DNA from: Alkaliphilus sp. B6464
GTDB taxonomy: Bacteria > Bacillota > Clostridia > Peptostreptococcales > Natronincolaceae
Assembly (NCBI RefSeq): GCF_018141165.1
Contig: NZ_CP058557.1
Location: forward strand, 1,364,001 to 1,428,000
DNA: 64,000 bases
Direction: 5' to 3'
Shown here: piece by piece, positions 8,014 through 38,472 of the stretch
Numbering within the stretch: the first letter of the stretch is position 1
How the letters are laid out: each line of letters begins with the position of its first letter
Notes under the pieces: model-generated
Told to the model about the DNA's origin: nothing
Database searches by the model: none
Seen by the model: only the letters and a program-made list of their open reading frames with translations
Made by a program: the position numbers and the translations under genes

Positions 8014-8168
8014 TGGGACGATTTTTTTTGATTGCTATTTTTTATATTTGTATTTAAAAAATATATAAATAGGGACTTAGATATAGATATATCCAATGAT
8101 AAAGATTGGTACAAGTATGTTATATTGTTAATATAATAACTACCTATATAGTCTATGGAGGCTTAAAA

Positions 8169-9332
8169 ATGTATAACTTACCTAAAATGTTTAATGAATA
8201 TGATGAAGCAAGACAAAAAGGGTTTATAAAGGTAAAAGATTATAAAGAACAAGGTAGGAAGATAGTAGGCACATTTTGCACTTATACTCCAAAAGAAATA
8301 ATTGAGGCGGCAGGTGCTATCTCTGTAAGTTTATGTGGTACTAGTGAAGAACCTATACAAGATGCAGAGAGGGATTTGCCTAGAAATCTTTGTCCTTTAA
8401 TTAAATCAAGCTATGGATTTGCTATAACTGATAAGTGCCCTTATTTTTACTTTTCAGATTTAATAGTTGGAGAAACTACATGTGATGGAAAGAAAAAGAT
8501 GTATGAACTACTGGGAAAATTAAAATCTATGTATGTGATGCAGCTTCCTCAAAACAATAAAGATGAAGAATCCTTAAATCTATGGAAAAAGGAAGTAATA
8601 AAGCTAAAGGAACGCTTAGAAAGTGAGTTCGGAGTAGATATAACTATAGAAAAGTTAAAACAAGCGATAAAACTTGTAAATGAGGAGCGAAGAGCAAAAG
8701 AGGAGTTTTATGGATTAGGGAAATTATGTCCACCACCAATGACAGGCCTAGAGATGCAAAAGGTTCTATATGGTTCTCAGTTTAAAATGGATATAAGAGA
8801 AAGCATAGAGAATCTAAGAGAACTTACGGATAAAATTAAAAAAGAATATGAATCAGGCAAGACTAATGTGTCTAAAGATGCACCAAGAATACTAATAACA
8901 GGTTGTCCTATAGGTGGTGCCTCTGAAAAGGTTATAAAAGCTATAGAAGATAATGGTGGAGTAGTAGTATGTTATGAAAATTGTGGAGGAGTTAAAGCTA
9001 CATACACAAAAGTTGACGAAGAGAAAGATCCTATAGATGCAATAGCAGAAAAATATTTGAGTATACCATGTTCAGTAATGTCCCCTAATGAAGATAGACT
9101 TAACCTGATTTTGGAAATAATTCATGAATATAAGATAGACGGAGTGGTAGAAGTAATCCTTCAAGCTTGTCATACTTATAATATTGAAAGCTATTCTGTA
9201 AAGAAATTTGTTACAGAAGAGAAAAACACACCTTATATAAGTATAGAAACAGACTATTCTCAGAATGATATGGGGCAAATTGGAATAAGAGTAGGAACAT
9301 TTATAGAAATGATTATAGAAATGATGTCTTAA
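8169..9332 (+). CDS. Double-cubane cluster protein (2-hydroxyacyl-CoA dehydratase HgdB/BcrC family)
   Basis: The 387-residue protein belongs to the HgdB/BcrC Fe-S family. Cysteines typical of the family are seen in GTFCTYTPKEI, LPRNLCPLIKSSYG, DKCPYFYFSDLIVGETTCDGKK, GKLCPPPMTG, ITGCPIGG and VCYENCGG. A stand-alone protein of this length resembles the YjiM-like double-cubane proteins, which reduce small molecules at very low potential with an ATP-dependent activator. Start ATG 8169 follows TATGGAGGC; an upstream in-frame ATG lacks a site. The stop is 28 bp before saoB, on the same strand with no terminator, so it may be co-transcribed with the sao genes. The activator gene is not in the window. 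Substrate unknown. Confidence 0.85.
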   Translation: MYNLPKMFNEYDEARQKGFIKVKDYKEQGRKIVGTFCTYTPKEIIEAAGAISVSLCGTSEEPIQDAERDLPRNLCPLIKSSYGFAITDKCPYFYFSDLIVGETTCDGKKKMYELLGKLKSMYVMQLPQNNKDEESLNLWKKEVIKLKERLESEFGVDITIEKLKQAIKLVNEERRAKEEFYGLGKLCPPPMTGLEMQKVLYGSQFKMDIRESIENLRELTDKIKKEYESGKTNVSKDAPRILITGCPIGGASEKVIKAIEDNGGVVVCYENCGGVKATYTKVDEEKDPIDAIAEKYLSIPCSVMSPNEDRLNLILEIIHEYKIDGVVEVILQACHTYNIESYSVKKFVTEEKNTPYISIETDYSQNDMGQIGIRVGTFIEMIIEMMS

Positions 9333-9360: not shown

Positions 9361-10167
9361 ATGAATACAAATCAAAAATTATTTTTATTTTTTCTAGTAA
9401 TATGCATCATAGGAATTGGATCTATTTTTATTCTACCTAAAGAAGAATATGTTGCAAATACAGATATGAGTCTAAGAATCGGAGCTGGAGATGATATTAC
9501 AGGATTACTTCTACAGCAGATCATGAGAACAAGCAATAATATGGGGAGAGAGAATCTCGTCAAGGGAGAAGCTCAAAAAAGGATTTTTGAGGACTTTACT
9601 TTTAAGGATTGCTGAAGTAACACAGCACAATGGGCCTTGAGCTCAGAAGAAATCGATATGGCCTTTTATTGTAACCATATAGCTTTGCATTTAGTGCGTT
9701 CTAGTGATGACTTTGAAATTTATGCACCAGTCATTATGAATGGTGAAATTATTGCCTATAATAAGGAACTGGATAATATGTACAAGCTAGGTATGGGCCA
9801 AAAGAGAGAACATTTACATAAGGTCTCTAAGGAGAATTATCCACAGATTCAAGAGATTTTGGAGATGCAACCTATATCCTTGCCGTATTCTTTGGAAGAA
9901 GGACAAATAGATGGTGCAGTTATGGATGTAACTAAGGCAGCCTTATTGCCAAAATTCAATTTTGCATCCCTTTCAGAAAATGACTATGTTTCTTTCGTTC
10001 TAGTTGTTAGGAAGGATATTATAGATACCAGAGCTTTTAGAGATTTTTTAGATGTGTACAATAAGACAATAGAAGAGTTAAGCCAAACGGAAACACTTAT
10101 TACACACATGGGTATGACAAAGGAATTTTGGGATAAAGCAAAATTAAAATTTCTAAGTTTAGAATAG
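9361..10167 (+). CDS. saoB: ABC transporter substrate-binding selenoprotein SaoB, TGA at codon 85 read as Sec
   Basis: Two open stretches (9361-9612 and 9616-10167) lie in the same frame, separated by one TGA at 9613-9615. Read through, they give a 268-residue protein: N-terminal signal anchor (LFLFFLVICIIGIGSIFI), then a periplasmic-binding-protein-like domain (RIGAGDDITGLLLQQIMRTS ... EEGQIDGAVMDVTKAALL). The TGA falls in FKDC-U-SNTAQWAL, giving a vicinal Cys-Sec pair. A SECIS-like hairpin follows (9624-9643). GAGGGAGAATTAT precedes the ATG. It heads saoA-saoP, so it should be the capture protein or an accessory subunit of that importer. Naming follows the SaoB family as I recall it. A plain nonsense mutation is unlikely given two further TGA genes in the locus. 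Confidence 0.85.
9613..9643 (+). promoter_or_regulatory. SECIS-like element of saoB (UGA plus hairpin)
   Basis: After UGA (9613-9615) the RNA can form AGCaCAA/UUGaGCU (arms 9624-9630 and 9637-9643, one A-A mismatch) closing the loop UGGGCC at 9631-9636. The loop starts 16 nt after the UGA and holds guanines at its apex, both features of bacterial SECIS elements. This was folded by eye only. Confidence 0.6.
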
Positions 10168-10181
10168 GAAAGGTGGATTAA

Positions 10182-11051
10182 ATGTCAATATCAATACAAG
10201 GAATAACTAAAGTTTTTCCCAACAGAAGAGATAAAAAGGCAAATAATATTGTATTACAAGATATCTCATTTGATGTGAATGAAGGTGAATTTGTTTCCTT
10301 ATTAGGTCCCTCCGGTTGTGGAAAGACAACAACATTAACAATTGTTGCAGGGTTTTTAAAGCATAATGGTGGGAATGTTTTTGTCAATGGGAAAGAGGTG
10401 AATAAACCAGGGCCGGATAGAGCCTTTGTGTTTCAAAATTATGCTTTGTTTCCATGGATGAAGGTAAAGGAAAATATTATGTATCCTATGAAGCTGAGAG
10501 GTATACCAAAAAGAGAACGTGAGGAGAAGCTAAAAAATTTATTGGAGATGGCGCAGCTTGAAGATTATGGAAATTATTATATTCATGAAGTATCAGGTGG
10601 TATGAAGCAAAGAATAGCTTTACTACGAGCCTTAGCTTGTGACCCAGATATTTTGTTAATGGATGAACCCTTGGGTGCAGTTGATTTTCAAATGCGTCAA
10701 TTACTTCAAATTCAATTAGAATCTATGTTGCAAGCAAACAAGAAAACAGCTCTTATGGTTACTCATGATGTTGATGAAGCTATCTATTTAAGTGACAGAG
10801 TTATTGTTATGTCAAGAGATCATGGAAAAATATTGGCTGATTTAAAAATTCAGCTTCCTAGACCTAGAGATAGAAAGAATGAAAAATATCATCAATATAC
10901 TAATGAATTAACTGACATCTTAAGAACTGCACTAGATGGTGATGTTAAAAATAAAGAAGATGAGGAATTATTAGAATTTATTAATACATCAAAACAAAAA
11001 GAGAATACAAACAAACCTTATTCTCAAAAACCAGCTCTTCAAGGAAGATAA
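10182..11051 (+). CDS. saoA: ABC transporter ATP-binding protein SaoA
   Basis: A 289-residue ATPase of the nitrate/sulfonate/taurine (SsuB/TauB) type. Walker A GPSGCGKTT is at 42-50, the signature VSGGMKQR near 145, Walker B ILLMDEPLGAVD near 165 and the H-loop VTHDVDEA near 200. After the canonical domain there is a charged tail of about 35 residues. AAAGGTGG precedes the ATG, 14 bp after the saoB stop. It energises import through SaoP. Without the neighbouring TGA genes it would be annotated only as a generic SsuB-like ATPase. Confidence 0.88.
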   Translation: MSISIQGITKVFPNRRDKKANNIVLQDISFDVNEGEFVSLLGPSGCGKTTTLTIVAGFLKHNGGNVFVNGKEVNKPGPDRAFVFQNYALFPWMKVKENIMYPMKLRGIPKREREEKLKNLLEMAQLEDYGNYYIHEVSGGMKQRIALLRALACDPDILLMDEPLGAVDFQMRQLLQIQLESMLQANKKTALMVTHDVDEAIYLSDRVIVMSRDHGKILADLKIQLPRPRDRKNEKYHQYTNELTDILRTALDGDVKNKEDEELLEFINTSKQKENTNKPYSQKPALQGR

Positions 11052-11114: not shown

Positions 11115-11942
11115 ATGAACGCACAACAGAAACAAGTTAATAGAATGGTACACGCAACCAAAATGAAAGATAGACGTGCATGGAAAAACTCAAGTGGAAA
11201 GGACTTTAATTATCATACTCCTATAGCTATTATTATACTGGGAATTATATGGATGATAGCAGCTAGAATTGTAAATAAACCATTTATTTTCCCTTCCCTA
11301 GAAAGTGTAATTGAAGCATTTTTTAAAGCGATTACAGACTTATATGTATTGAGAAATATTGGAATTACCATACGCCGAGTTATGACAGGTGTATTCTATG
11401 CATTTATTATAGGGTTACCTATTGGTATGATTATGGGATATTCACAAAATATGTTACGAGCTTTTGCACCATTTATCAATTCACTTAGGCAAGTTCCAAT
11501 TATGGCCTGGGTACCATTGTCCATTATATGGTTCGGCCTTGGAGATGGACCAACAATTTTCATGATTGCATTTACTGGAATATTTACAGTTATTTTAAAT
11601 ACCATTGCTGGAGTACAGGATATTAGTAAGGAATATTATCATGCTGCTCGTAGTATGGGTGCAAGAACAATTGATATTATTAAAGACATTGTACTTCCTG
11701 GTTCTCTACCAGGAATCATCACAGGGATTAGATTAGCAATTGGTTTGGGCTGGATGTCGGTTATCTGAGCGGAGTTCATTGCGACGAGTGCCGGGTTCGG
11801 TTACTGTATAGTAGAAGCTCAATCTAGAATGGAAACCCATACAATAATTGCGTATATGATTATAGCTGGATTGATTGGATTTTCCATTGACAAGGTGATG
11901 CTCTTAATTGAAAGTATGTTATTAAGATGGAAGGCAGACTAG
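11115..11942 (+). CDS. saoP: ABC transporter permease selenoprotein SaoP, TGA at codon 218 read as Sec
   Basis: The frame is open from ATG 11115 to TAG 11940-11942 except for TGA at 11766-11768. Read through, it gives 275 residues, the usual size for SsuC/TauC-type permeases, with about six membrane segments. The EAA loop (YYHAARSMGARTIDIIKDI) comes before the TGA. The TGA itself falls in GLGWMSVI-U-AEFIATSAGFGY, inside a conserved transmembrane segment where homologues have a small residue. The 57 codons after it keep clear family similarity (GYCIVEAQSRMET ... IGFSIDKVMLLIE) up to a normal TAG stop. Upstream AGGAGGTGAG is a strong site. Sec here would place a selenolate in the transport path, suited to a soft metal ligand. 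Confidence 0.86.
11766..11805 (+). promoter_or_regulatory. SECIS-like element of saoP (UGA plus hairpin)
   Basis: Downstream of UGA 11766-11768 the RNA can fold as AGUG-CCG (11787-11793), loop GGUU (11794-11797), CGG-UU-ACU (11798-11805) with one bulged U. The loop begins 26 nt after the UGA, within the window used by bacterial SECIS elements, and has the apical GG. Folded by eye. Confidence 0.65.
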
Positions 11943-11984: not shown

Positions 11985-13166
11985 ATGAAAAAAAGGGTGA
12001 TTTTAGCTATTCTTGCATTATCGATGATGCTAGCTGGTTGTACAGATAGCAGTCAACAAAGTGTTGTAATCGAAGATATTGATTATGACCCTGCTGCAGA
12101 GGTAGTAAGGTATGAGTTAGAAGAATTAAATGATGCAGACAAGGAATATGTTGTACAGTTAGGATATAGAGATTGTGATCACATGGTGCCAGCTATTATA
12201 GGGGAAAAGGCAGGGATTTATAAAGCTTTAGGGCTTAATGTTGTAGTTACAAAGACAGGTAAGATTATGGAAGCCATGTCCTCAGGAGAATTAGATGTAG
12301 GATATCAAGGTATTGAAGGAGCTATTAATTCTGTTAATCAGGGAGCACCACTATTTATGGCAGCAGCTAATCATTTAGGAGGGTCTAGATACTTAGTTGT
12401 AAGCAATGACATTAAAGAACCAAAGGACTTAATAGGAAAAAAAATAGCTGTTGGATCTGGGGCAGAAGCAAAGCCAGAATGGCGAAAATGGGCTGAAGAG
12501 TTGGGCATTCCAGCTGAGTTAGAAAACTATGAAGTAGTGGATATGTCTGATAAGGATAAAGTTTTTGCATTAAAAGCAGGACAGCTAGATGCCTTTTCTG
12601 CCTGCGATCCTTATGGTTCTCTAGTAGAATTTGAAGGTTTTGGTCGTATTATGGCAACTGGTTGGGGTGCACATGTTTCAGAGGATATGGAAGAAGGTTG
12701 GGGAATATGCTGTATTTACGCTATGAACAATGATTTCCTAGAGGAACATCCAGAATTGGCGAGAAGATTAGTTCTTGCACATTCTCTTGCTATTAAATAC
12801 TTGTATGAACATCCATACAATGCAGCTATGATGTTTGCTGATGGATTTGGAACAGTACCAGAAGTTGCACTAAAAACTGTGTATATGAAAACTGTTGCTG
12901 AAGGAAGAACAATTACATGGCAATTCTCAGAAGAAAACTTAAATAATTATATTGATTACTTCTATGACTATGAAATTGCAGAAGATAATATTCCAAATAT
13001 AAATGATATTGAAAAATTCATGTCAACAGATTTACTAGAAACCTGCGGTATTGAAGATTTCGATACATTCATTGAAGAAGCAAATATTGATAAGGAGTTC
13101 CCAGTTGGTATGAGCTATGACGATTGGCTAGCTAAGGCAAAAGCTATAGATGGTATTACAGAGTAG
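11985..13166 (+). CDS. Cys-rich ABC substrate-binding lipoprotein (NMT1/SsuA-like) of the sao operon
   Basis: A 393-residue lipoprotein (lipobox LAGC, Cys19) with the type-II binding fold of the SsuA/NMT1 family (PAIIGEKAGIYKALGLNVVV; VGYQGIEGAINSV; LIGKKIAVGSGAEAKPEWRK). Unusual for the family are cysteines in likely ligand-facing places: RDCDH (62-66), FSACDPYG, WGICCIYAMNN and LETCGIED. These could bind a thiophilic ligand. The start ATG follows GAGGGAGAGATC, 42 bp after saoP. It is the probable main binding protein of the SaoA/SaoP importer, with SaoB as a second subunit; the division of labour is inference. The gene ends at a strong bidirectional terminator. Confidence 0.85.
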   Translation: MKKRVILAILALSMMLAGCTDSSQQSVVIEDIDYDPAAEVVRYELEELNDADKEYVVQLGYRDCDHMVPAIIGEKAGIYKALGLNVVVTKTGKIMEAMSSGELDVGYQGIEGAINSVNQGAPLFMAAANHLGGSRYLVVSNDIKEPKDLIGKKIAVGSGAEAKPEWRKWAEELGIPAELENYEVVDMSDKDKVFALKAGQLDAFSACDPYGSLVEFEGFGRIMATGWGAHVSEDMEEGWGICCIYAMNNDFLEEHPELARRLVLAHSLAIKYLYEHPYNAAMMFADGFGTVPEVALKTVYMKTVAEGRTITWQFSEENLNNYIDYFYDYEIAEDNIPNINDIEKFMSTDLLETCGIEDFDTFIEEANIDKEFPVGMSYDDWLAKAKAIDGITE

Positions 13167-13251: not shown

Positions 13252-13722
13252 TTAACAACAATCTTCCATACCTTCCCCAAACAAATTTTTCAGCTCTGTA
13301 TCATCAATTAACCTAAATATAGAGTAACCGAAATTCTCATCCTTTGAACCAGATATAATAATCTCTATTGGTCCAGTTTTATCGATATCCTTAAATTCTA
13401 TTTTTAGGTTTTCTATTGGAGCAGGAATGTGGTCAGATAACTGAAATCCATCTTCTTTATCTATAACTACAAGCATTGCATTTTTTCTTTTAGATTCATT
13501 ATAGATTACCAGTAAGTCCTTACGTCCATCATCATTTAAGTCTTCATATCCACACTTTAAAACCTCATTGTTTGGAAAATTTTCTTTAAAGTATATAAGA
13601 AGTTCATTATCTGGCTCTACCCCTAGTGCCTCTATAGTATTACTTTTTTTTAGAGAAAAAGAATAGAGCCCTAATGCAAAAATTACAAATATGATTAGTA
13701 GATTTTTAAATTTTTTATTCAT
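13252..13722 (-). CDS. saoC: SaoC, exported protein ending Cys-Cys-COOH
   Basis: A 156-residue protein with an N-terminal signal anchor (LLIIFVIFALGLYSF), an FG-GAP/dockerin-like segment (GYEDLNDDGRKDLLVIY) and the C-terminus GEGMEDCC, so the last two residues are cysteines directly before TAA. That terminal Cys-Cys is the hallmark of the SaoC family; some relatives have Sec in this place, here both codons are TGT. A dithiol at a free C-terminus outside the membrane is well suited to pass a metal or organometal between proteins. The ATG is three bases after the saoE stop, with AGGTGAT inside the end of saoE, so the two are tightly coupled. Confidence 0.85.
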   Translation of the reverse strand: MNKKFKNLLIIFVIFALGLYSFSLKKSNTIEALGVEPDNELLIYFKENFPNNEVLKCGYEDLNDDGRKDLLVIYNESKRKNAMLVVIDKEDGFQLSDHIPAPIENLKIEFKDIDKTGPIEIIISGSKDENFGYSIFRLIDDTELKNLFGEGMEDCC

Positions 13723-13725
13723 ATT

Positions 13726-14823
13726 TTACATCACCTGCTCAGTACTTTTTTTAAAGAAATCCTTAACTTTAGGATACATTCCCTTTAGGAAAAATAGGAA
13801 AATGATGAATGAGCATAAGTACTTAACTGGTTCTGGCAAGTTAAAAAGTAATTTATTTGCACTTTCAATGCTATTATCAATCCTATTAAAGTTAACAGCA
13901 GGCTTAAACCCAGGCATAAGCCATAAATTAGTTAGATAACCAACTATTAATGAAAAGACAGAGATAGTTACTCCATATATTACAGCTGTTTTCTTACCAA
14001 TTAACTTATAAATACTAAGTAGCTCAGGAATATTAGTAGCTGCACCTGCCATCAAAAAGGTAATAGCAGCACCAGGTGAAGCACCACTTGCAATTAGAGC
14101 AGCTATAAAAGGAATATGTCCAACAGCACAAACATACATGAATGCAGCAAGAACTGCTACATTCCAAAGTGATAGCATACTAGGATTTCCTAAATACTTT
14201 TGTATAAATGTATCTGGAAATGCAGTTAGAATAAATCCTCCAAACAACATACCTAAAACTACGTATTTACTTAATACTACAGCTAAATCACCTATTACCC
14301 ACTGAATACCGGATCTAAATTTTTCTAGTAAAGTGATTTTTTCTATCGGTTTTAATGAACTAGCTATTATTTCTTCTTCTAGGCCTTCTTTTCTTACTTC
14401 ATTGCCTCCCAGTTTATTGCCGATTATTCCTACAATAAAAGGAAGCAAAAGTCCTGCAACTATATTTATTATAGTTATTTCTTTACCTAATAAGCCATAG
14501 CTAAGTATTAGTGCTATAGGATTTAGTACAGGAGTAGATGCCATAAAAGCTAGTGTGGGCCCTACATATGCTCCAGAGTAGTATAGGCTAATGCCAAGTG
14601 GAATTGTACCGCAACTACAAATAGGTAAGCAAGTACCTGAAAGTGTTGACTTTAAAATAGAGCTAAGCTTAGTATTTCCTAAGGCTTTATGAAATCTCCT
14701 AGGAGAAATAACATCATGCAAAAGCCCTGCTACTATGTAACTAAAAACAAGCCAACCAGAAGCTCCATTTAATAAACTTATTGAGGTAAATATAATGTCC
14801 TTTAAAAAATCTAGTATTAACAA
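13726..14823 (-). CDS. saoE: SaoE, ArsP-like permease (DUF318/COG0701 family) efflux transporter
   Basis: A 365-residue polytopic membrane protein with about ten membrane segments and the cysteine motif TCLPICSCGTIPLG (Cys65, Cys69, Cys71), which marks the ArsP/YraQ permease family. ArsP is known to export trivalent organoarsenicals, so an organometal(loid) substrate is a reasonable inference. The second half has VCAVGHIPFIAALIASG and MAGAATNIPELL. Translation starts at TTG 14823-14821, seven bases after AGGTGA, which overlaps the saoT stop TGA. saoT, saoE and saoC are thus one coupled unit. Confidence 0.87.
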   Translation of the reverse strand: MLILDFLKDIIFTSISLLNGASGWLVFSYIVAGLLHDVISPRRFHKALGNTKLSSILKSTLSGTCLPICSCGTIPLGISLYYSGAYVGPTLAFMASTPVLNPIALILSYGLLGKEITIINIVAGLLLPFIVGIIGNKLGGNEVRKEGLEEEIIASSLKPIEKITLLEKFRSGIQWVIGDLAVVLSKYVVLGMLFGGFILTAFPDTFIQKYLGNPSMLSLWNVAVLAAFMYVCAVGHIPFIAALIASGASPGAAITFLMAGAATNIPELLSIYKLIGKKTAVIYGVTISVFSLIVGYLTNLWLMPGFKPAVNFNRIDNSIESANKLLFNLPEPVKYLCSFIIFLFFLKGMYPKVKDFFKKSTEQVM

Positions 14824-14830
14824 TAAAACA

Positions 14831-15100
14831 TCACCTCATATCATCTAGCTCACTAACAGCTAGAGCAATTTCATTTTCGATAATATTCTTAGATATTCGT
14901 TGAATTTTCTTTTTTTCATTTATAATTAAAGTTCCTCTAAATATAACTCCATACTTCTTAACATAGCTCATATCTTTGCCTGCTATATAAATCTTCACAT
15001 CGACCTTATCTTTGTATTTTGCTGCAGCAGCCTCTACAGCTCGGGTATACCCATCGCAGCTAGGTCAAGTATTAATAAACTCAACTAGAACCTTTGACAT
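14831..15100 (-). CDS. saoT: SaoT, thioredoxin-like selenoprotein with UxxC motif (TGA codon 12)
   Basis: No uninterrupted ORF covers this stretch. Reading ATG 15100-15098 through the TGA at 15067-15065 gives 89 residues: MSKVLVEFINT-U-PSCDGYTR then AVEAAAAKYKDKVDVKIYI and RGTLIINEKKKIQRIS, ending at TGA 14833-14831. The pattern beta-strand, U-x-x-C, helix, KYGVIFRGTLIINE is that of short redox-active thioredoxin-like proteins (NrdH/thioredoxin_3 type). TGA stands exactly where the N-terminal active-site cysteine belongs and Cys15 is the partner. GAGGTGTATAA precedes the ATG. It probably reduces or relays ligands for SaoE/SaoC. The position of the TGA makes Sec very likely. Confidence 0.88.
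15034..15067 (-). promoter_or_regulatory. SECIS-like element of saoT (UGA plus hairpin)
   Basis: After UGA (15067-15065) the RNA can pair CUA-GCU (15063-15058) with AGC-(UG)-UAG (15041-15034) and GGG (15052-15050) with CCC (15045-15043), loop UAUA. The internal loop is large, so this fold is weaker than those of saoB and saoP. Confidence 0.4.
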
Positions 15101-15164: not shown

Positions 15165-15497
15165 TTAGAATGTAATTACCTGATCAAGTTCTACTGAACC
15201 AAGAGCACCATATAGTACTGGAAAACAACCGATTGCAGCACCTGGTATAAGTCTATTTTCAATTTGTCTCTCAAGGGCACATTGGTCACATGCTAATAAT
15301 ATCATACCTGTTTCTTCATGAAGTTTTTGAAGTCTTTCACCTATATCAGTTTCGTTCAATAATAAGAAGGTATTATCGAATAAGAAAAACATCCCTATTA
15401 CCTCAGCACCATGATTACCAGCTTCTAATTGTGGAATTACCATATCTCTTAAAATAGCTCTTGAATTATCCGAGCTTATAACATATGCAACTTTCAT
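15165..15497 (-). CDS. saoD: SaoD, DsrE-related small protein
   Basis: A 110-residue cytoplasmic protein of the DsrE/DsrF-like fold (MKVAYVISSDNSRAI; HGAEVIGMFFLFDNTFLL). It has a CxxC motif LACDQCALER (Cys70, Cys73) and Cys91 in GCFPVLYG. DsrE-type proteins carry persulfide sulfur or selenium on cysteines, so a relay role for selenium, sulfur or a metal is plausible. Start ATG 15497 follows AAGGAGGGATTTGG; a longer frame upstream has no site. It is first in the minus-strand set saoD-saoT-saoE-saoC. Confidence 0.85.
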   Translation of the reverse strand: MKVAYVISSDNSRAILRDMVIPQLEAGNHGAEVIGMFFLFDNTFLLLNETDIGERLQKLHEETGMILLACDQCALERQIENRLIPGAAIGCFPVLYGALGSVELDQVITF

Positions 15498-15694
15498 CCA
15501 AATCCCTCCTTCCATCGTCAAAATTCGTCTTAATAATAACATATTTGTCTAAAAAATAACAATTGCAATATATTATAATAGAATTCTCATCTATTAATAT
15601 TATCTATTTAACAATTACTGATTGTGATGTTATCATAACAAGTAAAAGGCAATAAAAGATGTGATATGAATAAGGGTATTGGGGGAATGTGTGA

Positions 15695-20549: not shown

Positions 20550-20800
20550 AATAATCCCCCTTTTGATTTGAATAAAATATTTGGAAAATTCGGCTATTAT
20601 CATAATACACTTTATTCATTTCGAATTCAATATATTTCGATAGTCTAATATATTTTATTTCAAATTTTATGTTTAAAATATCTATAACTTTATAATATAC
20701 TTAGAAATTATTAGAAATATACAAAAAATAATCTACCTATTGACTAAATAAGCAAAATGGTGCATAATGTTTAAATAAGTGCAAAGTGAATAATTAAAGG

Positions 20801-20968
20801 TAGAGGCGCAATCTTTAATAGTACTATTGTGGAGGTAAGCACGATGATACGATAGGAAAGGAAAGATTGCCGAAGTATATGGTTTAAGCTAAAGGGCCAT
20901 ATAACTGGTCTTGCATATAATATATGTAAGATTGTCACAAATAACCTATTTGTGGGGAGCTATCATTC
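20801..20968 (+). promoter_or_regulatory. Lysine riboswitch (LYS element)
   Basis: The leader shows conserved L-box segments in order: AGAGGCGCAATCTTTAATAG, GATTGCCGAAG, GGTCTTGCA, TAAGATTGTCAC and GGGGAGCTATC. These are the hallmarks of the lysine-sensing riboswitch. It lies 145 bp before an NhaC-type transporter gene and is followed by a terminator, so lysine should shut the transporter off. The region 20604-20800 before it is AT-rich and holds no gene I can see. Confidence 0.92.
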
Positions 20969-21016
20969 AAACTAAAACATAAAATAGACATAATTTATTA
21001 TTGTCTATGTTTGAAA

Positions 21017-25390: not shown

Positions 25391-25474
25391 AATCACAAAT
25401 AATACTATTGACATTATAAATGTAATAATATACAATGTAATGAATAAATTTAATATAAACCTTTTAAAGACAAT

Positions 25475-25845
25475 GAGGAAAAGAGTAAGCATGAGGAAGT
25501 AGTTTTAGCGAGTTGGTGACAGTGGAAGACCAATACGAAGCCTATGTTGAAGAACATTTCTGAGTTCCTAACCGAAATCTTGATGATAGTAGGCTTAGGC
25601 GGAGCCAAACCGTTATAGATTGGAAAGTATCGAAATCGTAGTTTGATAGCACTAGACGACTTTTGAACACTTGAAATTTTTTACCGAAGGCTAAAATTTT
25701 AGGTGAGACAGGAATCGAGGCTATAGAAACAGACGACTTTTTCCGTACTGATTTAAGAGAGCCGTTTGGCTAATTAAGGTGGTACCACGGAAGTTAAGTC
25801 TTTCGTCCTTATTTTTATAGGGATGAAGGGCTTTTTTTATTTTCT
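25475..25845 (+). promoter_or_regulatory. T-box leader of asnA, probable Asn specifier
   Basis: The T-box sequence AAGGTGGTACCACGG is at 25776-25790, followed by a terminator stem (about 25797-25833) and a T-run to 25843. The upstream part has typical stem I pieces (GTTGGTGACAGTGGAAGACC; GATGATAGTAGG). The likely specifier is AAC at 25553-25555 in GAAGAACATTTCTGAG, an asparagine codon that matches the gene downstream. Uncharged tRNA-Asn would stabilise the antiterminator and turn asnA on. Confidence 0.9.
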
Positions 25846-38191: not shown

Positions 38192-38199
38192 TAATGTAC

Positions 38200-38287
38200 A
38201 TAGAATCCGCTTTCCTACGCAGGTTTTAACCTACAGGTTCTAAGGGTCGGAATACTCCTCTCAGCACATGGCACCCCCAGCGATAAA
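38200..38287 (-). promoter_or_regulatory. TPP riboswitch (THI element)
   Basis: On the minus strand the conserved blocks appear in order: CTGGGGGTGCC, GCTGAGAGG, GACCCTTAGAACCTG and ACCTGCGTAGGAA. It precedes thiT; thiamine pyrophosphate would favour the terminator and stop uptake. Confidence 0.95.
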
Positions 38288-38472
38288 TATTTTTTCTTTT
38301 ATTATAACACAATTTCAGAAATAAGTCTTAGATATTTATTTAGAGGCAGGATAATTTTGTAAAAGTAGTACTTTAGACCTATATATATAAATATTACATA
38401 ATTCTACAATATATGATAAAATGGTAACATATTTATATGTTGGTATTAATTTCTTAATGGGAGGAAAAAACT

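Follow-up and report, generated by a model that had tools for sequence, protein, structure and literature searches.

The sao cluster

The window, by which we mean the whole stretch of 64,000 nucleotides of Alkaliphilus sp. B6464 DNA that was analysed, contains a saoP gene set in a saoB-A-P-X / saoC-E-T-D cluster, all seven partners of which score above the cut-offs of their families (Table 1). The saoP reading frame is interrupted by an in-frame TGA and then continues in the same frame to a TAG, and the read-through product carries U218 within WMSVI-U-AEFIA; the preliminary description of this locus, which had proposed a full-length permease with a regular stop codon, was correct in coordinates, length and stop alike. 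It had also named the gene saoP, a reading borne out by the sao gene neighbours and by the score of the read-through protein against the curated equivalog model for SaoP (ABC_perm_U), which at 388.9 bits lies well above the cut-off of 295. The window's saoP is very likely to encode the SaoP selenoprotein of an SAO importer, SAO standing for Sec-assisted organometallic. Membership in the TauC or SsuC families was rejected, the scores of 136.6 and 135.1 bits falling far under the respective curated cut-offs of 342 and 347.

Table 1. Features of the sao cluster and its surroundings, with positions in the window
Feature	Positions	Strand	Description	Evidence
Reductase gene	8163..9332	+	double-cubane-cluster anaerobic reductase, directly upstream of saoB	NF040772, 555 bits
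saoB	9361..10167	+	substrate-binding selenoprotein, UGA (predicted Sec85) at 9613-9615, Cys-Sec motif	NF040727, 271.5 bits (cut-off 140)
saoA	10182..11051	+	ABC ATPase	NF040729, 424.7 bits (cut-off 360)
saoP	11115..11942	+	ABC transporter permease subunit, 275 aa with predicted Sec218; ATG at 11115, TAG stop at 11940-11942	NCBIfam NF040733
UGA codon of saoP	11766..11768	+	predicted to be read as Sec218	TGA or TGT/TGC alone in 68/68 homologous loci
Bacterial SECIS-like stem-loop	11787..11805	+	AGUGCCG / loop GGUU / CGGUUACU, bulged U on 3' side; 11787-11793 pairs with 11798-11805 (7 pairs), loop at 11794-11797	pair counts, synonymous constraint
saoX	11985..13166	+	substrate-binding protein, Cys 64, 207, 242, 243	NF040735, 503.6 bits (cut-off 300)
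saoC	13252..13722	-	Cys-Cys-COOH end	NF040734, 184.2 bits (cut-off 80)
saoE	13726..14823	-	efflux transporter	NF040736, 525.7 bits (cut-off 325)
saoT	14831..15100	-	thioredoxin-like selenoprotein, UGA (predicted Sec12) at 15067-15065, motif UPSC	NF040730, 123.6 bits (cut-off 65)
saoD	15165..15500	-	DsrE-related protein	NF040732, 186.6 bits (cut-off 169)
Lysine riboswitch	20793..20970	+
T-box leader	25464..25813	+
TPP riboswitch	38195..38288	-

Two of the partner genes, saoB and saoT, hold further UGA-Sec codons. Across up to 50 neighbourhoods, a set of cysteine positions in the partner proteins was invariant or nearly so, namely C64, C207, C242 and C243 of SaoX, C84, C85/U and C104 of SaoB, the C-terminal Cys pair of SaoC, C69, C71 and C232 of SaoE, and C/U12 and C15 of SaoT. 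SaoB carried Sec in 13 neighbourhoods, and SaoP carried Sec in all 13 of them; SaoP Sec was combined with SaoB Cys in 5 neighbourhoods and SaoB Sec with SaoP Cys in none, these being raw counts that ignore the kinship of the genomes.

The role of the SAO system in organometal handling is a prediction in the literature (PMC13188914). A model search of the window's genome (E 0.001) gave no match to SaoL, the MerB-like lyase, and the same held for eight further genomes among the 31 SaoP genomes searched, whereas 21 of the 31, comprising one congener and 20 others, had a SaoL above the cut-off. In the congener (G001), the SaoL gene lies at C2:268825-269298, about 6 kb downstream of saoP. SaoL is therefore found in most, not all, SaoP genomes and is not strictly defining for SAO. 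With none recognisable in the window's genome, the system may handle some substrate other than an organometal, or SaoL may be optional.

Codon 218 in SaoP homologues

SaoP loci came from two sources, a search of about 850 genomes with the family model and a scan of named genomes. At codon 218, the resulting 68 loci, some of which are one genome reached twice, have TGA (33 loci) or TGT/TGC (35 loci) and no other codon, so that every SaoP homologue in the alignment has Cys or Sec at this site, and the absence of Cys and Sec from homologues, half of the refuting evidence asked for by the preliminary description, was not observed; in more distant and related permeases, the position is mainly occupied by Gly, Ser, Ala, Leu or Ile. 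The TGA forms span several families. The SaoP tree requires approximately three changes between Sec and Cys, with the caveat that a number of its branches are long and poorly placed. On these codon counts, the occurrence of TGA at position 218 is far beyond chance. A true stop, left by a sequencing error or by decay into a pseudogene with the downstream frame as a remnant, would likewise show as a single in-frame stop codon, but 33 loci in several families have TGA at precisely this codon and, in nearly all cases, the same stem, every other locus has Cys, and the part of saoP downstream of the TGA is conserved both as protein and as RNA. Comparison with relatives refutes this explanation, which we regard as having practically no chance of being right.

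The genome that contains the window encodes tRNA-Sec (70.1 bits), SelB (390.2 bits) and SelA (627.8 bits). Among the genomes tested, tRNA-Sec was found in every TGA-form genome but one, a 420-contig draft, and it was also present in most Cys-form genomes, four of which had no match. Recoding of the UGA to another residue such as Trp, or its read-through by a near-cognate tRNA, is very improbable in view of this machinery, of the stem that accompanies the TGA forms and of the homologues, which have only Cys at the site and never Trp or Arg; the homologous codons led us to reject the reading of UGA as Trp. With the Cys/Sec-only site, the machinery and the RNA constraint described below, the earlier proposal of Sec at this codon holds up, and UGA 218 of saoP almost certainly directs the insertion of selenocysteine.

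A stem-loop downstream of the UGA codon

The preliminary description had pointed out a 7-bp stem closing a GGUU loop after the saoP UGA, and this stem was found as described, with one bulged U and its start about 18 nt downstream of the UGA codon; the loop reads GGUCU in many relatives as against GGGUU in the window. Folded alone, the window's stretch was no stabler than shuffled sequence (z 0.50), which means that a single sequence does not prove the stem and that the proof has to come from comparison. The family stem, of which the window has 7 of the 8 pairs, was complete with all 8 pairs in 24 of 26 distinct Sec-form sequences versus 1 of 27 distinct Cys-form sequences. At the codon level, ACG AGT GCC at +6 to +8 and TAC at +12 were present in 26 of 27 distinct Sec-form sequences, and the corresponding counts for ACG, AGT, GCC and TAC in the Cys forms were 2, 13, 10 and 5 of 28. 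When Sec forms were compared in pairs at most 75% identical in protein, the identity of synonymous codons exceeded expectation by 0.44 over codons +6 to +13, all top windows overlapping this stretch, and the peak coincides with the position of the stem-loop, whereas no eight-codon window in the Cys forms had an excess above about 0.10.

In an alignment of 18 Sec forms, the stem was 97.9% paired, and three of its pairs had changed on both sides, a number reached by no shuffle and equalled by no slid register. However, all three trace back to a single divergent sequence (L072), and the structure itself had been built from the sequences used in this test, for which reasons the synonymous constraint is the stronger evidence. 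L072 (1504-2319, genome G469) is a Sec-form SaoP and the nearest to that of the window in the tree; its stretch downstream of the UGA has diverged and still partly pairs through two-sided changes, and could also fold into another stem, AAAUUC/GGAUUU around GGGUUUU. Together, the patterns of codon use and pairing indicate that the stem-loop is under RNA-level selection in Sec-form saoP only.

Fold of SaoP and the setting of residue 218

The AlphaFold single-chain model of SaoP (pLDDT 88.3) has CmpB and NrtB as its best fold matches (Z 24.8 and 23.3), and its superposition on 9u9z_A (Z 24.8, 240 residues, 2.2 Å) corresponds to the type I ABC importer permease fold of the NrtB/CmpB class. Residue 218 is placed by the model within helix 185-223, five residues before the helix end, in agreement with the earlier assignment of the Sec to a transmembrane helix. 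This helix is preceded by helix 172-180, the counterpart of the family's cytoplasmic coupling helix; because helix 185-223 follows the coupling helix and residue 218 is near its end, family topology would put Sec218 probably on the periplasmic side. The preliminary description had put the selenolate in the translocation path; helical-wheel moments placed residue 218 at 93-142 degrees from the hydrophobic side, varying with the residues used, and the direction of variability at 4-68 degrees from residue 218, an ambiguous outcome that favours neither a pore-facing nor a lipid-facing orientation. Conservation is complete or nearly so throughout 213-225, whichever face of the helix is considered.

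Residue 218 lies one helical turn from Met214, which is present in 68/68 SaoP sequences versus 4/19 controls; Met130 is similarly distributed (67/68 versus 0/19). Residue 218 is itself the sole conserved Cys/Sec of SaoP, and in the sequences compared Met214, Met130 and Cys/Sec218 together mark the family.

A possible role for the selenolate

The data can be brought together in a model in which SaoP serves a type I ABC importer as its membrane subunit and belongs to the nitrate/taurine/sulfonate permease class, and UGA 218 would be decoded by SelB and tRNA-Sec under the direction of the downstream stem-loop. From the family and the operon, the channel would be expected to consist of two SaoP chains, SaoA supplying the ATPase and SaoX, SaoB or both serving as binding proteins. 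Sec218, near the end of its helix, probably on the periplasmic side and one turn from the invariant Met214, could then be the soft ligand to which a thiophilic substrate, e.g. an organometal or a metal-thiolate, is handed by the conserved cysteines of the binding proteins before being passed inward. We consider this soft-ligand function the most likely role of Sec218, with about an even chance of being correct. A more specific version is tentative, namely that SaoP provides a dedicated transit site for soft metals within the membrane, to which two subunits contribute Sec/Cys218 and Met214 (and perhaps Met130) and which takes metal or organometal from the cysteines of the binding proteins, so that the selenolate would be a transport ligand and not a redox catalyst.

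On the other hand, Sec218 might have a structural or redox-regulatory role and make no contact with the transported substrate; it could, for example, form a mixed selenide-sulfide that gates the transporter near its periplasmic mouth. The near-invariance of 213-225 on all helix faces means that conservation singles out no pore side, a Sec near the periplasmic end could pair with a Cys of docked SaoX or SaoB, and SaoP has no second conserved Cys/Sec; the invariant Met214 and Met130, absent from most relatives, speak indirectly against a redox gate, being more what one would expect of a soft-metal site. We hold a structural or redox-regulatory role to be possible, if rather unlikely. If Sec218 does contact the substrate, as the soft-ligand role would have it, SaoP would belong to the rare instances in which selenocysteine serves as a ligand on a transport route, and since Cys and Sec forms both occur naturally among its relatives, this role can be tested directly.

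Relation to known systems

The presence of Sec in SaoP is already known from a published and curated selenoprotein family, of which the window supplies a further member; a 2026 review lists SaoP, NF040733, among selenoproteins and cites Haft & Gwadz 2023 (PMC13188914). With regard to Sec in permeases, the locus adds little to what was reported in 2023; what still makes it interesting is the role that a selenolate may play in a transporter helix. What is added here to the known SaoP is the SECIS evidence, the SaoP-enriched Met214 one turn from Sec/Cys218, the occurrence of SaoB Sec only where SaoP has Sec, and a genome with no recognisable SaoL despite the SaoL of a congener.

The window's protein is like the SaoP of the SAO system (Haft & Gwadz 2023) in passing the curated cut-off and in sharing with every relative a UGA or Cys codon at the same position, and its neighbourhood is like the published system in having the partners SaoA, B, X, C, E, T and D, whereas the genome differs from its congener and 20 other SaoP genomes in the matter of SaoL. 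SaoP shares a sequence superfamily with the TauC and SsuC permeases, and a fold with NrtB and CmpB, the permeases of nitrate and bicarbonate importers (Z 21-25, 24-28% identity), which, unlike SaoP, have Ala at the position of Sec/Cys218 and Leu at that of Met214. At the RNA level, the element resembles the SECIS elements of bacteria, for example the one of E. coli formate dehydrogenase, in which a stem-loop likewise follows soon after the UGA within the coding sequence and has G and U in its apical loop as well as a bulged U; the bulged U of the E. coli element is placed otherwise than the 3'-side bulge of the window's stem.
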